Virus record (IMG/VR): IMGVR_UViG_3300031576_000236
Coordinates: 1 to 29,494 of that record
From: a virus
Strand: one strand, 5' to 3'
DNA length: 29,494 bases
Below the pieces are notes generated by a model. That model ran no database searches. It was not told where the DNA came from and worked only from the letters and a program-made list of their open reading frames with translations. Made by a program: the position numbers and the translations under genes. Numbering within the stretch: the first letter of the stretch is position 1; the number at the start of each line of letters is the position of its first letter. Below are positions 667 through 18,596 of the stretch, one piece after another.

Positions 667-1485
667 ATGGGATTCGAAATCCCGATCGACGTAGGATACG
701 GCGGTCATCGGAAAGTTGCCGACCTGAAGGCGCGCCTGAAAGATCCACAAGCCGATGTCTGGCCGATCCGGTTGTGGCTTTGGGCCGCTACAAACGCGCG
801 CGATGGCGTGATTAAGGTCACTCGGAGGACGCTCGAAGTCGCTCTGGACTGGCGCGGAAAGCGTGGAAAACTCGTTCAAAGCATGATCGGAGCCGGATGG
901 CTGGCAATACAGTCGACGAGCAGCAATTTGATCATCCACGACTGGATGGAGGGTATCGGGCGCGCGATCTTCCTCTATGAATGCAAGAAGCGGAAGCAGC
1001 GCGAGAAGTACGCATCATCGGAAGACTTCCATCAGTCTTCCGGAAGAATTCCACCTATCCGGGAGGGAGGGGAAACCCGGGAAACCCGGGAAACCCGGGA
1101 TATGAAATCCGGGAGGGAAGAACGCCCCCCCGCTGATCGATCAGGATCAGTGGCTGCTCTTCTTGGAGCCCGATGGAACAGCGCGAAGTCCGGAGCCGTC
1201 CTGAGTCAAGCGAAAGCGACGCGGCTGGTTCAGGAAGCGCTTGACCGCGGCGCCGACGCGCAGAAGATCGAGATCGCGTTCAACGACGAGAAGACATGCA
1301 AGGGCCGGAAAATATGGGAAGTGCTGGACTCACTCTGCGGAGGATCGAATGGCAAGTCCAAGTCCTCGGCCGCTGTCGGCCATTATGCCCTCGGTGATGG
1401 AGAGCTTGAAAGACAAGTGCGCGAGCGGATCGCCCGAAGAGACGGAACAGAAGAAGGCGCAGCGCCTCGCGTGGACGCGCGATAG
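667..1485 (+). CDS. Replication-initiator-like protein (lambda O / DnaD-like N-terminal winged helix)
   Basis: The product has 272 residues. ATG 667 is preceded by GGAGAG at 658-663. The N-terminal part (about residues 12-110) reads as a winged-helix domain like those of phage replisome organisers: it has an aromatic helix (VWPIRLWLWAATNA), a second helix near VTRRTLEVALDWR, and a wing ending in a basic KKRKQREKY stretch. A polar linker follows (about 115-165) with the tandem tripeptide ETR three times. The C-terminal region (about 170-225) is helical and ends in GRKIWEVLDSL. The next gene is a DnaC-like loader, so the pair resembles the lambda O and P arrangement. The role as initiator is inferred from this order and domain layout. 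The linker-coding DNA holds repeats described separately as a possible origin. Confidence 0.6.
   Translation: MGFEIPIDVGYGGHRKVADLKARLKDPQADVWPIRLWLWAATNARDGVIKVTRRTLEVALDWRGKRGKLVQSMIGAGWLAIQSTSSNLIIHDWMEGIGRAIFLYECKKRKQREKYASSEDFHQSSGRIPPIREGGETRETRETRDMKSGREERPPADRSGSVAALLGARWNSAKSGAVLSQAKATRLVQEALDRGADAQKIEIAFNDEKTCKGRKIWEVLDSLCGGSNGKSKSSAAVGHYALGDGELERQVRERIARRDGTEEGAAPRVDAR
1019..1042. repeat. Inverted repeat at the left edge of the putative origin
   Basis: CGGAAGAC at 1019-1026 and GTCTTCCG at 1035-1042 are perfect 8-base inverted arms around an 8-base loop. The right arm overlaps a second, 10-base palindrome, CTTCCGGAAG, at 1037-1046. Both lie inside the coding region of the initiator-like protein, just before its tandem repeats. 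Confidence 0.7.
1057..1118. other. Candidate replication origin: three tandem 9-base repeats inside a 12-base direct repeat
   Basis: The 9-mer GAAACCCGG occurs three times head to tail at 1072-1098. It is bracketed by two identical copies of ATCCGGGAGGGA, at 1057-1068 and 1107-1118. An inverted repeat sits to the left (1019-1042) and a perfect 12-base palindrome, CTGATCGATCAG, to the right (1133-1144). In lambda and related phages the origin consists of repeated initiator binding sites within the initiator gene itself, so this position is suggestive. The repeats themselves are directly visible; their use as an origin is inference. Confidence 0.5.
1133..1144. repeat. Perfect 12-base palindrome right of the putative origin
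   Basis: CTGATCGATCAG at 1133-1144 equals its own reverse complement, and GATCAG recurs directly after it at 1145-1150 (GGATCAG context). It contains two GATC sites. It closes the repeat cluster in the initiator gene on its right side and may be part of the same element. Confidence 0.6.
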
Positions 1486-2173
1486 TCTGCACGCGGACCT
1501 CGATGCGATCAAGAGGACGTTCGAACTCGACGTACGGATTCCGGCACGGTTCGTCGAGCGCGCGAAGTTCGAGAATCTCGGCTGGATCAAGAACAAGAAG
1601 GCCGTTTCGCATTGCGAGGCGTTCACGAAAGATCCGGCGAAGACGGCTCCGCCGATGCTCATGGGACAGACGGGCAGCGGCAAGACTCACCTGATATGGG
1701 CGACCGTCGGAGCACTGGTTGAAGCAGTGCGCACGGAGGTTGCAGAGTTCGCGCTCCAAGGTATGCGGACGATCTGCGAGAAGATGGCCGATGGTGGAGA
1801 CTTCGTCGCCGTGAAAGACGCCTTGAAGTGGCCGACGCACGTCCATCTCGTCGTCGCGACAGGCGCCGATCTCGCCCACGCAATGCGCCAGAGTGTCGCG
1901 CGCAACGGTATCGAGTCCGTCGTCGCCCGGCACGCGCAGAAGGATAAACTCGATCGCGGGACGAACGTGCTCGTCATCGACGACATCGAAGTGATGAAGA
2001 TGGGCGACTGGCTGAACGAGGAGCTCTACAGGATCTTTGATTTCAGGTACGCCGAGCTCCATCCGACGATGGTCGTCACGAACCTCGCGCCGACCGAACT
2101 GAAAGCGCATCTCGGCGACCGGATCACGAGGAGGATCATGGACATGACCGAACCATTCGAGTTGAAGCGATGA
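1349..2173 (+). CDS. DnaC-like helicase loader, AAA+ ATPase
   Basis: This 274-residue ATPase has a Walker A motif GQTGSGKT at about residues 106-113 and a Walker B motif NVLVIDDIE at about 206-214. A sensor-1-like segment, TMVVTNLAP, and a basic arginine pair near the end (DRITRRIMDM) complete the AAA+ pattern of DnaC/IstB-type loaders. Such proteins deliver the replicative helicase to the origin. ATG 1349 is chosen because GGAGG lies five bases upstream; ATG 1385 and 1397 are in frame but lack a good site. This start gives an out-of-frame overlap of 137 bases with the initiator gene. The gene ends in an ATGA overlap with the next one. Some 60 residues between Walker A and B are longer than in compact DnaC. 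Confidence 0.8.
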   Translation: MASPSPRPLSAIMPSVMESLKDKCASGSPEETEQKKAQRLAWTRDSLHADLDAIKRTFELDVRIPARFVERAKFENLGWIKNKKAVSHCEAFTKDPAKTAPPMLMGQTGSGKTHLIWATVGALVEAVRTEVAEFALQGMRTICEKMADGGDFVAVKDALKWPTHVHLVVATGADLAHAMRQSVARNGIESVVARHAQKDKLDRGTNVLVIDDIEVMKMGDWLNEELYRIFDFRYAELHPTMVVTNLAPTELKAHLGDRITRRIMDMTEPFELKR

Positions 2174-3252: not shown

Positions 3253-3320
3253 GATTCGGTAGCCTCTTCGCCACAGTGCGCGCGAAGCTGCTCAAAGCAT
3301 GGGAGGACACCGATCCATGA
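3249..3320 (+). CDS. 23-residue micro-ORF coupled on both sides
   Basis: GTG 3249 overlaps the RuvC stop as GTGA, and its own TGA at 3318-3320 overlaps the next start as ATGA (3317). The encoded peptide, beginning VRFGSLFATVRAK, is 23 residues long, with a short amphipathic basic helix. The double 4-base overlap suggests it is translated and carries ribosomes from RuvC to the methyltransferase gene. The peptide may have no function of its own. An in-frame ATG at 3299 of the next gene lies within it. Confidence 0.4.
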   Translation: MRFGSLFATVRAKLLKAWEDTDP

Positions 3321-4705
3321 ACATCGAACGCGTTCCCCTCTCCAGCTTGCGCCAGGATCCTGCGAACGCGCGCCGGCATTCGCGCCGCAACGTCGACACG
3401 ATCATGGCCAGCCTCGATCGCTTCGGCCAGCAACGCCCGATCGTCATCGACGCGGAGAACCGGATCCTCGCCGGCAACGGCACCTACCAGGCGGCGCGCG
3501 AGCTCGAGTGGACCGAGATCGACGTGACGCGCACGAAGCTCGCTGGCGACGAGGCCAGGGCTTACGCGCTCGCCGACAACCGCACCGCCGAGCTGGCCGA
3601 GTGGGATCAGGAGGAACTGCGCCTCGCGCTGCGCGATCTCGAGGGCAGGAAGTTCGATCTCGCGAAGCTCGGCTGGACCCCCGGCGAGCTCGCGCAACTC
3701 CCGCGCTGGAACCCCGCAGCCGCCGAGCCGGATCCGTCCGAGCCCGTCCTCGCCGATCCCGTCGCGAAGCTGGGCGACATCTGGAAGTGCGGCGAGCACC
3801 GGGTCATGTGCGGCGACGCAACGGACATCGTCAATGTGAGCCATCTCGCGGACGGACAGGCCCCAGCGCAAGTTGTCTTCACGGACCCGCCCTACGGCGT
3901 CGACTACCAAGGCGCCGCCGGTTCGATCAAGAACGACGCCGAGGCGGGCAACAAGCTGGTCGCGCTTCTGCGCGCGGCGTTCGCCCACGCGATGAAGATC
4001 GTGCTGCGCTCCGCCGCGTGGTACATCTGGCACGCCAGCGCCACTCGCGAGGACTGCGCCCACGCGATGAAGATCTCCGGCCTCGTCGAGCGCCAGTACC
4101 TGATCTGGGTGAAGCCGACCTTCGTCCTCGGCCACGCCGACTATCACTGGTCGCACGAGCCCTGCTTCTACGCGCACCAGGCCGGCGAGAGCCCCGACTT
4201 CTTCGGCAACCGCGCGCAGTCGACCGTCTGGCGGGTCGGGATCCGCGCACCCGACGCGCACGCCGCGGCGCTCGGCAAGGGCGTTGTTCTCAACGACGGC
4301 GAGGCATCGCAGATCCACGTCACGCGCCGGCTGCCGCGCACGAAGCTGCCGGCCTTCCGCGTGCCGAAGGGCACGTTCATCACGATCGCAGAGCACCCCG
4401 GCGACAGCACGACGTGGGAGATCAGCCGGACCGAGCAGTCCGCGCACCCGACACAGAAGCCGAGCGAACTCGCGGAGATCGCGCTCCGGAACTCCAGCCG
4501 CCCAGGCGACACCGTGCTCGATCCGTTCCTCGGCGGAGGCTGCACGCTGCTCGGTGCCGAGAAGACCGGCCGGCGCTGCCTCGGCATGGAGCTCGATCCG
4601 CGCTGGGTGGACGTTTCCGTGGTACGCTGGCAGCGGCTGACGGGGCAGCACGCGAAGAACCTCAAGCGGCCCTCGGTCCAGCTCGGTGAAGGATCCGCGT
4701 CATGA
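3317..4705 (+). CDS. ParB-like domain fused to an N-4/N-6 DNA methyltransferase
   Basis: The protein has 462 residues from ATG 3317, chosen over ATG 3299 because it makes an ATGA overlap with the micro-ORF. Residues 1-95 are a ParB/Srx-like domain: the opening IERVPLSSLRQDPANARRHS, then LDRFGQQRPIVIDAENRILAGNGTYQAA, are typical. The methyltransferase follows: the catalytic DPPYG motif is at residues 190-194, and the AdoMet-binding motif DPFLGGG at about 402-408. Catalytic motif before AdoMet motif is the beta-class order. TQKP at about residue 378 is also typical of this class. It probably methylates adenine (or N4-cytosine) in phage DNA to evade host restriction or to mark it for packaging. 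ParB-methylase fusions are common in phages next to terminase genes, as here. Confidence 0.88.
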   Translation: MNIERVPLSSLRQDPANARRHSRRNVDTIMASLDRFGQQRPIVIDAENRILAGNGTYQAARELEWTEIDVTRTKLAGDEARAYALADNRTAELAEWDQEELRLALRDLEGRKFDLAKLGWTPGELAQLPRWNPAAAEPDPSEPVLADPVAKLGDIWKCGEHRVMCGDATDIVNVSHLADGQAPAQVVFTDPPYGVDYQGAAGSIKNDAEAGNKLVALLRAAFAHAMKIVLRSAAWYIWHASATREDCAHAMKISGLVERQYLIWVKPTFVLGHADYHWSHEPCFYAHQAGESPDFFGNRAQSTVWRVGIRAPDAHAAALGKGVVLNDGEASQIHVTRRLPRTKLPAFRVPKGTFITIAEHPGDSTTWEISRTEQSAHPTQKPSELAEIALRNSSRPGDTVLDPFLGGGCTLLGAEKTGRRCLGMELDPRWVDVSVVRWQRLTGQHAKNLKRPSVQLGEGSAS

Positions 4706-6698: not shown

Positions 6699-6899
6699 GT
6701 GGCCGACAAGACGACGCGGCGATACAAGGTGAAATACCACGCCGAGCACGCAGATGCGTGTCCCTGCTGCAGGACGAAGCGCGCGTCGCCCTCGATCCCG
6801 AACTGCGAGTGCTCCGCGTCGAGCTTCGCGATGACCGTGACGTGCGGAGAGTGCGGGCACTGCCCGGCCCACTGCGCTTGCGAAGTGAAGGTCGCATGA
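6699..6899 (+). CDS. Cysteine-rich miniprotein, probably metal-binding
   Basis: This 66-residue protein begins at GTG 6699 behind GAAGGAGTGA. Ten of its residues are Cys: C21, C23, C24, C36, C38, C49, C52, C55, C59 and C61, with four His nearby. The pattern CPCC, CEC and then CGECGHC suggests one or two structural zinc sites rather than disulfides, since nothing looks like a signal peptide. It lies between terminase and portal genes and overlaps the next gene as ATGA. No family is recognised. It might be a DNA- or protein-binding accessory in packaging. Confidence 0.65.
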   Translation: MADKTTRRYKVKYHAEHADACPCCRTKRASPSIPNCECSASSFAMTVTCGECGHCPAHCACEVKVA

Positions 6900-7240
6900 C
6901 AGATGTAATCCCGCGGATCAAGAAGACGATCGTGCTCGATCGCGATCCAGGCGTGCTCGCTCAGGTCTTCGTGAAGGCGTGCGTGGACATGGATCTTCGG
7001 CGCGTCGAGGGCGGCTACCGGCCGACCGTCGTGCAGGGCGCCGTGATGATCGGCTACCTCGACGGCGCGAAGCTCGATCCGAGCGGCCGAATCGTCCTCG
7101 ATCTTGATCTCGCGGCTGAACCTTCGCTGCCGATCCTCGCATCGGTCCAAGTCACGATCGAGCCCCCGAGGATCCTCTGCGTCGAACTCGGCGCCGGCGG
7201 CGCGAAGACCGTGCTCTCTGTTCCGTGGTGCGGAGTTTAG
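6896..7240 (+). CDS. Hypothetical protein between terminase and portal genes
   Basis: This 114-residue protein starts at ATG 6896 in an ATGA overlap with the cysteine-rich gene. It looks like a beta-rich fold: alternating strands such as KKTIVLDRD, GRIVLDLDLAA and ASVQVTIEPPRILCVELG, with one helix near the middle (PGVLAQVFVKACVDM). No catalytic motif is visible, and no family is recognised. The portal gene follows after three bases, so the gene probably belongs to the head operon. Confidence 0.55.
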   Translation: MTDVIPRIKKTIVLDRDPGVLAQVFVKACVDMDLRRVEGGYRPTVVQGAVMIGYLDGAKLDPSGRIVLDLDLAAEPSLPILASVQVTIEPPRILCVELGAGGAKTVLSVPWCGV

Positions 7241-7243
7241 GCG

Positions 7244-9157
7244 ATGGGAAACTTCGGCCAGCTGACGAGCGCGAACACTGCGGGGATTCAGTACGTCTGG
7301 ACCGTCGCGGCCGCCTACCGCCGCTTCGCGTGGCTGATCGATCCGGACTTCGCGACGCAGAACGAACCCGAGGCGTGGAATAAGATCCGCCGCGACGCCG
7401 ACATCGCGCACGCGATTATGAAGCGGCGTCAAGCCGTGGCCGGTCTCCACTGGAACCACGAGCCCGTCGAGGACAACGACGAGGACAAGATCGCCGCGCA
7501 GCTCATGGACTTCCTCGTGGGCCGGATCCGCCGCTTCCACTTCTCGCGCTACAACTTGGCCGAGGCGATCTTCCGCGGGAGCTCGTGGGCGTTCATCGAC
7601 GGCGACCGGCAGCCGCTCGTCTATCCCGGCGACCGCGTGCGGACGTGGTGGGCGCCGAACAAGCTGCGCCACGTCGACCGATTCCGCTTCCGCCTCGTGC
7701 GCGAGGACACCTACGAGGAGAACGAGATCGAGACGCGCTGGGAGTTCTTCTCGATCAAGCGGCAGGAATGGATCCCGCTCGAGCGGCCGGATCTTTTCGT
7801 GCGCCACGACTTCGAGCAGACCGAGGACACGCTCGGGTACGGCCACGGCCTCCTGCAGTCGATTTACTACTTCTGGCGCGCGAAGGAGATCGTGCTCTCG
7901 CAAGCGCTGAACGGCATCGAGCGCTTCGCGAACGGCACCGCGACGGTCGCCGTCGACGGTCTCCGCGCCGGCAGCACCGACCGGAACAACGACGAGATCG
8001 TCGACGAGTGGATCGACGAGTACACCAAGCAACGGACGCAGCACATCCTCGTCCACGACAAGCGCGACGAGGTCCGGATGCTCGACTGGCCGGCCACCGG
8101 CGCGCAGATGATCTGGGAGACCTACGACCGGCTCCAGCAGGGACTCGACCGGCTGATCCTCACGTCTACGTTGCCGACCGGCGGCGGCACGGAGAAAGGC
8201 TCCCTCGCGCGCTCGTCGACCGAGGAAGAGCAGATGGAGGCGACCTTTCAGGCGGACCGGCAGGGAATGTCCGAGACGATCGACGGCTCCGTCTCGTCGC
8301 TCGTCTGGATGCGGAACCTCGGCATCATCCGCGCGTTCTTCGCCGAGCGCGGGATGCGGATGCCGAACCGACCCCACTTCAAGATCAGCCAGCAGAAGAT
8401 CAACGATCCGAAGACGAACGTGGACGTGCTCGAGCGCGCGTCGCGCATTGGCCTTCCGATGCTGCTCAAGCAAATCTATACGAAGCTCGACCTGACGCAG
8501 CCGGCGCCGGACGATGAAGTGCTGGAGCCCGCGACGCCGGCGACGCCCGGACTCAGCCCCGGCTTCGGCGATCTCTTCCGAGGCCGGCGCGTAGTGCGCT
8601 TCCGCGACATCGGGCGCACGCCCGAGCGGATGATCGACACCTCCCCGATTCCGGTCTATCTCGAGGCGACCGTGCGCGGCAAGGCCGAATACTACCGGCT
8701 GCAGGGACTCGCGACGGCCGAGGCGGTGGCGCTCGCGATGCGCGAGGCACATGACGCACAGAAGCCGCCCCCGGCGGGAGACACGAACGTCAAGGTGCTG
8801 ATGCCTGACCAGCGCTTCGACATCCGACTGCCGGACGAGATCAAGATGCCGCAGCCGATCTTCCAAGTGCCGGTACCGTACGTCAACGTCGAGGCGGCGA
8901 TCATGCGGCTGCCGAACATCGATCTGCAGCCGATCTTCCAAGTCCCGCAAGCGCCGCCGGCCGCGCCCGCGGTGCCGGCCGCTATCGAGTTCAAGCCGAT
9001 GATCGTCATGCCGGAGCCGAAGATCGAGAAGGTCGACGTCACGGCGAACGTGGTCGCGAAGGTCGAGATGCCGAAGGCCGAGGCGAAGAAACTCGTCGTC
9101 ACGCGCGACGAACATGGCAACCTTGAGAGCGCGACGATCAAGCCTGTCAGCGAATAG
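7244..9157 (+). CDS. Portal protein, DUF935 / Mu gp29-like, with a long C-terminal extension
   Basis: The 637-residue product has the features of DUF935 portals: an N-terminal segment with DPDFATQNEPEAWNKIRRDADIAHAIMKRR, a wing region (WEFFSIKRQEWIPLERPDLFVRHDF), then GYGHGLLQSIYYFWRAKEIVLSQ and the long helix ending in STEEEQMEATFQADRQGMSETI. It would form the ring at the head vertex through which DNA passes. Residues after about 430 are unusual for the family: a Pro-rich stretch contains two copies of QPIFQVP 25 residues apart, and the end, VVTRDEHGNLESATIKP, resembles a tail-of-protein motif seen in other phage structural proteins. A strong ribosome site is absent; a GGAG lies about nine bases before ATG 7244. 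Confidence 0.85.
   Translation: MGNFGQLTSANTAGIQYVWTVAAAYRRFAWLIDPDFATQNEPEAWNKIRRDADIAHAIMKRRQAVAGLHWNHEPVEDNDEDKIAAQLMDFLVGRIRRFHFSRYNLAEAIFRGSSWAFIDGDRQPLVYPGDRVRTWWAPNKLRHVDRFRFRLVREDTYEENEIETRWEFFSIKRQEWIPLERPDLFVRHDFEQTEDTLGYGHGLLQSIYYFWRAKEIVLSQALNGIERFANGTATVAVDGLRAGSTDRNNDEIVDEWIDEYTKQRTQHILVHDKRDEVRMLDWPATGAQMIWETYDRLQQGLDRLILTSTLPTGGGTEKGSLARSSTEEEQMEATFQADRQGMSETIDGSVSSLVWMRNLGIIRAFFAERGMRMPNRPHFKISQQKINDPKTNVDVLERASRIGLPMLLKQIYTKLDLTQPAPDDEVLEPATPATPGLSPGFGDLFRGRRVVRFRDIGRTPERMIDTSPIPVYLEATVRGKAEYYRLQGLATAEAVALAMREAHDAQKPPPAGDTNVKVLMPDQRFDIRLPDEIKMPQPIFQVPVPYVNVEAAIMRLPNIDLQPIFQVPQAPPAAPAVPAAIEFKPMIVMPEPKIEKVDVTANVVAKVEMPKAEAKKLVVTRDEHGNLESATIKPVSE
8851..8943. repeat. 18-base direct repeat pair in the portal gene
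   Basis: GCAGCCGATCTTCCAAGT occurs at 8851-8868 and at 8926-8943, exactly 75 bases apart. Both copies are in frame and encode QPIFQV, so the unit is 25 codons. The identity at DNA level, including third codon positions, suggests a fairly recent duplication in the portal C-terminal extension. Confidence 0.75.
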
Positions 9158-18116: not shown

Positions 18117-18596
18117 TTATAGATGGTTCCAAGTCAGACGCTTGCAGATCCGATAGATCGCTTGCGGCGTGACGCCGTAGCGTGCCGCGATATCTTTCAG
18201 CAAGCAGCCATGAGCACGCATCTTTCGTGCGGAAACGACTTGCGTGCGAGTCAGTACGGCCCGACCGTTGCGTTCACCCGTCCAGACCCGAAGAACTCGC
18301 GTGGCGTGTTCGGCGTTTTGCTTTCGCGTGACCCATTCCAGATTCTCGACGCGGTTGTCGCGTTTCTTGCCGTTCTTGTGATTGATTTGATGGTCCTGTG
18401 GTGCGGGACCAAGAAATGCCAGCGCGACGAGCCTATGGAGTGTCGTCGTCTTTCGATGTGGACGACGACCAAGCGTAACGGCCAAATATCCTCCGCTCAC
18501 GATGGCCGGCGAGAGGATACGAATTCGCCGGATGCGTCCTTCATTCGAAATTTGATAGTGAGCATCAAAGCTGGGTATCGTCCGCCATGCTTCCAC
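18117..18596 (-). CDS. Free-standing HNH homing endonuclease, NUMOD4 + HNH_3 type
   Basis: This is the only convincing gene on the minus strand. The 159-residue product begins at a GTG (complement of 18594-18596). Residues 1-47 match the NUMOD4 DNA-binding motif (WRTIPSFDAHYQISNEGRIR). The HNH region follows: LHRLVALAFLG (H54), then INHKNGKKRDNRVENLEWVT (H73, N75, N81, N85), the HNH_3 pattern. A C-terminal helix-turn-helix (about 108-155; DIAARYGVTPQAIYRICKR) would bind DNA too. Such enzymes cut phage DNA lacking the insert and spread by homing. The gene sits exactly between two structural genes and interrupts neither. Its base composition is less GC-rich than the surroundings, which supports recent arrival. 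Confidence 0.9.
   Translation of the reverse strand: MEAWRTIPSFDAHYQISNEGRIRRIRILSPAIVSGGYLAVTLGRRPHRKTTTLHRLVALAFLGPAPQDHQINHKNGKKRDNRVENLEWVTRKQNAEHATRVLRVWTGERNGRAVLTRTQVVSARKMRAHGCLLKDIAARYGVTPQAIYRICKRLTWNHL

Follow-up and report, generated by a model that had tools for sequence, protein, structure and literature searches.

The question raised by this locus is whether a dense group of repeats lying inside a phage gene serves as an origin of replication. The window, i.e., the whole stretch of DNA analysed, is the complete IMG/VR record IMGVR_UViG_3300031576_000236 (29,494 bases), which is probably a fragment and was chosen on account of its repeats. The initial annotation had read the region as a possible origin within the gene of an initiator, followed by a helicase loader of the DnaC type.

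The gene that holds the repeats (Table 1) was compared with profile collections. By its sequence, the encoded protein is a member of PHROG 9474, as both a profile match in the N-terminal part and an adjoining loader gene were found. The loader ORF matched phrog_50 (E 4.5e-17) and Bac_DnaA (E 9.4e-8), and a RuvC gene lies downstream of it at 2782 (Pfam match). The 272-residue initiator matched no Pfam family at E <= 1, and membership in RepA_N (PF06970) by profile was therefore rejected. The profile PF04492 (Phage_rep_O), which recovered lambda O itself at 5.7e-36, did not match the window protein, and hhalign of the window profile against lambda O gave a probability of 0.1%, in an alignment that is shallow on the lambda side. 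Membership in the lambda O family was ruled out by the missing PF04492 match and the lack of detectable homology.

Just downstream of the replication genes, positions 3299-4705 encode a fusion of a ParB-like nuclease domain with a DNA methyltransferase (phrog_498, phrog_620). A lone minus-strand ORF of 159 aa (18117-18596), which resembles NUMOD4/HNH homing endonucleases by eye, is surrounded by plus-strand structural genes. No DnaA boxes (TTWTNCACA) were found in the 29,494-base record. Cumulative GC skew, which the initial annotation had suggested computing, showed no extremum at the cluster; the measure is uninformative for a probable fragment whose genes almost all share a strand.

In the AlphaFold2 model of the initiator, confidence is limited to residues about 11-90 (pLDDT 83-92), where helices and strands make up a winged helix, and the invariant residues of the family alignment, K16, W37, G47 and HDW 91-93, are in this N-terminal domain. 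The linker is predicted to be disordered: between residues 121 and 179, which include the part encoded by the repeats, pLDDT is mostly 31-45. A Foldseek search of the model against the PDB returned nothing significant, and the top rows were MarR winged helices. Among 786 structural alignments of the model, the best three were those with the plasmid-type initiator domains 4pql, 5kbj and 4pt7 (Z 5.8-6.2, rmsd 3.2-3.6 over 81-85 residues, which is the range of a common fold), the last of which is staphylococcal RepA (PMC7145576). At Z about 6, this likeness may reflect no more than a shared fold. No relative of the initiator profile or of lambda O was found among the sequences of solved structures.

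Table 1. Features of the initiator locus, in window coordinates
Feature	Positions	Strand	Remarks
Initiator gene	667-1485	+	272 aa; PHROG 9474 replication initiation protein, residues 8-145 matched, E 1.2e-12
Predicted N-terminal winged-helix DNA-binding domain	667-960	+	about residues 1-98; AlphaFold2 model, family alignment, fold comparison
Least stable 60-mer of 601-1500	1003-1062		99.7th percentile of record; weak candidate unwinding region
Inverted repeat CGGAAGACT-N6-AGTCTTCCG	1019-1042		9-bp arms at 1019-1027 and 1034-1042
Dyad TCTTCCGGAAGA	1036-1047		L025 has two copies of its 17-nt context GGAATTCTTCCGGAAGA, each in another frame
Near-palindrome GGAAGAATTCC	1042-1052		second copy of GGAAGACTTCC (1020-1030), in other frame
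Flanking repeat ATCCGGGAGGGA, copy 1	1057-1068	+	frame 0
Iteron 1 GAAACCCGGGA	1072-1082	+	core GGGAAACCC, inverted arms around A-tract
Iteron 2 GAAACCCGGGA	1081-1091	+	
Iteron 3 GAAACCCGGGA	1090-1100	+	
Iteron 4 GAAATCCGGGA	1104-1114	+	near-identical copy; frame differs from iterons 1-3
Flanking repeat ATCCGGGAGGGA, copy 2	1107-1118	+	frame 2
12-bp palindrome CTGATCGATCAG	1133-1144		not seen in nearest relative
DnaC/DnaA-like AAA+ helicase loader	1385-2173	+	start uncertain (ATG 1349 or 1385); overlaps initiator gene

The elements that the initial annotation had noticed, namely an inverted repeat, three tandem copies of one unit, a flanking pair and a 12-base palindrome, were all located (Table 1). 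The arms of the inverted repeat are longer by one base than the 8 bases given there, and the fourth, out-of-frame copy of the iteron had been overlooked. The three tandem GAAACCCGG units span 1072-1098, and iterons 1-3 share one frame, in which they code for Glu-Thr-Arg. Other frames are used by iteron 4, by copy 2 of ATCCGGGAGGGA and by one member of the GGAAGAMTTCC pair. When up to one mismatch was allowed, GAAACCCGGGA had four copies in the cluster and one elsewhere in the record. The 12-bp palindrome was left out of the proposed origin, since it was not seen in the nearest relative and is probably due to chance. Another palindrome, GGGATTCGAAATCCC, of 15 nt, covers initiator codons 1-6 (669-683) and is similar to iteron 4 plus flank (GGGATATGAAATCC, 1097-1110). 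It is a possible operator, though relatives retain only the peptide MGFEIPID.

The excess of repeats over coding needs was estimated by synonymous codon permutation, in which the protein and the codon usage are fixed, and pairs of 8-mers, direct or inverted, were counted within 150 nt. With 300 shuffles, the floor of p is 0.003; the p-values are those of single genes, uncorrected for how many genes were compared. The window initiator had 34 pairs in its best 150-nt stretch, as compared with 5.4 expected (z 12.4, p 0.003), and the peak was at 0.51 of the gene. Lambda O, used as the positive control, gave 23 pairs versus 3.8 expected (z 11.3 at 0.48 of the gene), and HK97 O was also positive (z 4.7 at 0.50), while p <= 0.01 was reached by 0 of 39 control genes. 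The cluster at 1019-1144 has the highest repeat density in the 29.5-kb record. The only stretch that comes near it is made up of glycine codons (23.6-23.75 kb), and its p is above 0.01 after codon shuffling. The least stable 60-mer adjoins the iterons and is no weaker than its codon-shuffled versions (p 0.585); thus, unlike in several relatives, no AT-rich tract beyond the codon-imposed level was found in the window.

The repeats were then compared with those of close relatives. L001, the nearest one (60% protein identity over residues 1-149), has two GAAACCCGGGA, each in another frame. Within a 44-nt block (window 1090-1133, L001 1091-1134), 38 of 44 nucleotides are identical, and the two genes differ in the frame that they use for it, which is 0 in one and 2 in the other. 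Just past this block, the identity falls to 0.33-0.53. In L025 (45% identity), the 18-mer GGAATTCTTCCGGAAGAA occurs twice, 106 nt apart and in two frames, and 17 nt of it are common to the window. Because copies stand off-frame and the block is kept by L001 in another frame, the cluster appears to be a DNA element and not a protein repeat. Judging from these alignments, protein-level selection is an unlikely cause of the off-frame conservation in L001 and L025.

Besides the window, 14 relatives were gathered by protein search, not by their repeats. A significant cluster (p <= 0.01) was detected in nine of them (L025, L026, L031, L033, Mx9, Harrison, Lagaffe, Mwe-Yong1318-1 and Sc-Yong805-2), with peaks at 0.41-0.65 of the gene, so that clusters occupy a like gene position in phages of unrelated hosts. 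Shimadzu was borderline (p 0.027), and L001, nd4, Dfl-JY45 and Brigit were not significant in the codon-shuffle peak test. Relatives that keep the protein and lack repeats, which the initial annotation would have counted against an origin, were found in part: the very distant Dfl-JY45 and Brigit have no repeats, whereas L001 and nd4 have short, non-significant ones. The repeat sequence mostly differs between relatives, being ATTCTCCGSGGAGAAT in L026, TGTAACG/CGTTACA in L033, CCTAACC in Harrison, CCCCCCTGAAACCCC in Mx9 and GGACGACC in the Firmicutes group, and in Mwe-Yong1318-1 AACCGTTCA is read in all three frames. Many relatives have direct rather than inverted repeats. In most relatives, as well as in lambda, the minimum of duplex stability is near mid-gene. 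Instability beyond codon usage was found in nd4, Shimadzu, L025, L033, Mx9, Mwe and HK97 O.

The linker motif GGACGACC is also present just upstream of the initiator gene in nd4, Shimadzu and Lagaffe (L027 2901, L028 2879-2942, L036 2839), which hints at autoregulation or at an origin in two parts. Purine-rich AGAGTAGA repeats (L027 about 3405, L028 3376-3408, L036 3343-3380, L034 about 3440) immediately follow the putative sites, and those of Shimadzu and Lagaffe are in more than one frame. They coincide with the least stable DNA of the gene or are close to it, and are perhaps an unwinding element. Residues 168-260 of the Shimadzu (L028) initiator resemble lambdoid O (HK97, P22-like phages) and its N-terminal domain belongs to PHROG 9474; as read from these matches, this initiator is a domain swap. 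Other initiator-like genes, on the minus strands of L010 (about 8100-8270) and L012 (about 6850-7000), have palindromic GTCCCGGAATTCCGGGAC-type linker repeats, seemingly in more than one frame, and possibly represent the same design in another family.

A search for two GAAANCCGGGA within 30 nt gave 22 viral-contig matches. Of these, L001/L007 alone is a relative, and the rest are coding repeats with no relation to the family or belong to different initiator-like genes, among them those of L010 and L012. Since most of the matches are not relatives, this pattern alone was rejected as a family marker. One relative was found by a scan of genome contigs, and the plasmid search gave no match. The PHROG 9474 search of 291 class-level genomes yielded mostly C-terminal matches, which were left out, and the 11-member alignment proved too heterogeneous to be used in another viral scan.

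In lambda, the iterons, which carry an A-tract, and an AT tract both lie mid-gene in O (PMC7466680). The window resembles lambda ori/O in its mid-gene iterons (O nt 349-433; window cluster at initiator nt 353-478), its predicted N-terminal DNA-binding domain and its adjoining helicase-loader gene (P in lambda). On the other hand, it has no clear AT-rich tract, and its iterons start 9-14 nt apart, while the 18-bp lambda iterons start 20-24 nt apart. The repeat sequence, too, differs from that of lambda, as the initial annotation had remarked. In SPP1, gp38 binds direct repeats inside gene 38, and the loader gp39 and the helicase gp40 act with gp38 (PMC6316719). By this description, the window is like SPP1 gp38/oriL in having direct repeats, as putative sites, within its own initiator gene. 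A point of difference is that SPP1 possesses a second origin as well as an AT-rich unwinding element.

In pSK41, the Rep boxes are central in rep, the DNA-binding residues are 1-120 and the linker is dispensable (PMC5703833), and RepA_N iterons have inverted arms converging on an A-tract (PMC7145576). The window shares with RepA_N plasmids (pSK41 Rep, pTZ2162 RepA) an N-terminus that is predicted, in the window protein, to be a winged helix, and linker-coding repeats central in the gene, and its core GGGAAACCC likewise consists of inverted arms around an A-tract. However, RepA_N is described as a plasmid replicon without an adjoining loader gene. Four PHROG 9474 phages, Lagaffe (Faecalibacterium), Harrison (Paenibacillus), Shimadzu (Roseburia) and Mx9 (Myxococcus), have the N-terminal family in common with the window, and they have repeats after the DNA-binding domain and a gene for a DnaC-type loader or DnaB next to it, but each has its own repeat sequence, and the C-terminal domains vary.

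From these results, we consider it probable that the cluster at about 1019-1118 is a replication origin embedded in the initiator gene, or the initiator-binding half of one. The reading of the initial annotation is supported by the PHROG 9474 match, the loader, the mid-gene position close to that in lambda, the frame-independent conservation and the clusters in nine of 14 relatives. It becomes the leading hypothesis because the protein belongs to PHROG 9474 and is lambda- and RepA_N-like in architecture, though not by profile. The mechanism proposed here is modelled on lambda, SPP1 and pSK41. The N-terminal winged-helix domain, which probably acts as a dimer, would bind sites within its own gene. 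The candidates for the actual site are the GAAAYCCGGGA iterons and, close to them, the TTCCGGAA dyads. The bound complex would bend and open nearby DNA, and the C-terminal region together with the adjoining DnaC/DnaA-like loader would deliver the host DnaB helicase for theta replication. The peptide encoded by the repeats may be tolerated because the proposed job of the linker is to be DNA.

The same repeats could be initiator binding sites for autoregulation, i.e., an internal operator or roadblock that tunes the expression of the initiator and the loader, and not an origin. The copies of GGACGACC upstream of the gene in nd4, Shimadzu and Lagaffe stand where an operator would sit, and the 15-nt palindrome over the first codons is also compatible with this idea. 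However, the window iterons are inside the gene only, with none upstream, and their mid-gene position matches that in lambda, SPP1 and pSK41, whose internal sites are the origin. We regard regulation without origin function as unlikely.

Repeats may also arise by slippage, which would have expanded low-complexity linker DNA, and the (ETR)3 peptide or neutrality would then account for them with no protein bound. The predicted disorder of most of residues 121-179, the tandem and in-frame arrangement of three copies and the differing repeat sequences of most relatives are as expected from slippage, but the excess of repeats persists with the protein held fixed, and in-frame slippage would not yield dyads or off-frame copies. 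The 17-nt dyad context common to the 45%-identical L025, the frame-shifted conservation with L001 and the matching gene position of the repeats across phages whose hosts are unrelated argue in the same direction, and make this explanation very unlikely. Inverted repeats at 1019-1047 could form RNA or DNA hairpins, as would suit some other DNA or RNA signal, for example for recombination, packaging or an mRNA structure that couples the initiator with the loader. Such a signal is highly improbable, since a family-wide association with the DNA-binding domain of an initiator and tandem direct repeats would be unexpected for it, and many relatives have direct, not inverted, repeats.

The design of an origin embedded in an initiator gene, which we prefer for the window, is itself already known from lambda, SPP1 and pSK41; here it would be extended to a separate initiator family. 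For PHROG 9474 as a whole, the chances are about even that these winged-helix initiators, unrelated in sequence to lambda O, carry their cognate sites in linker-coding DNA, that most phages have a site of their own, presumably in co-evolution with the DNA-binding domain, and that domain and origin can be swapped as a cassette onto different C-termini. No description of this family-wide pattern was found in the literature searched, which consisted mostly of abstracts. Sequence alone predicts origins in the uncultured phage and in the cultured phages Mx9, Harrison, Lagaffe, Shimadzu, Mwe-Yong1318-1 and Sc-Yong805-2. If site and domain do co-evolve, the origin and its recognition code would be readable from one gene. 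Because each protein adjoins its own putative sites, the family may provide ready pairs of domain and site for learning DNA recognition and for testing the modular exchange of origins.
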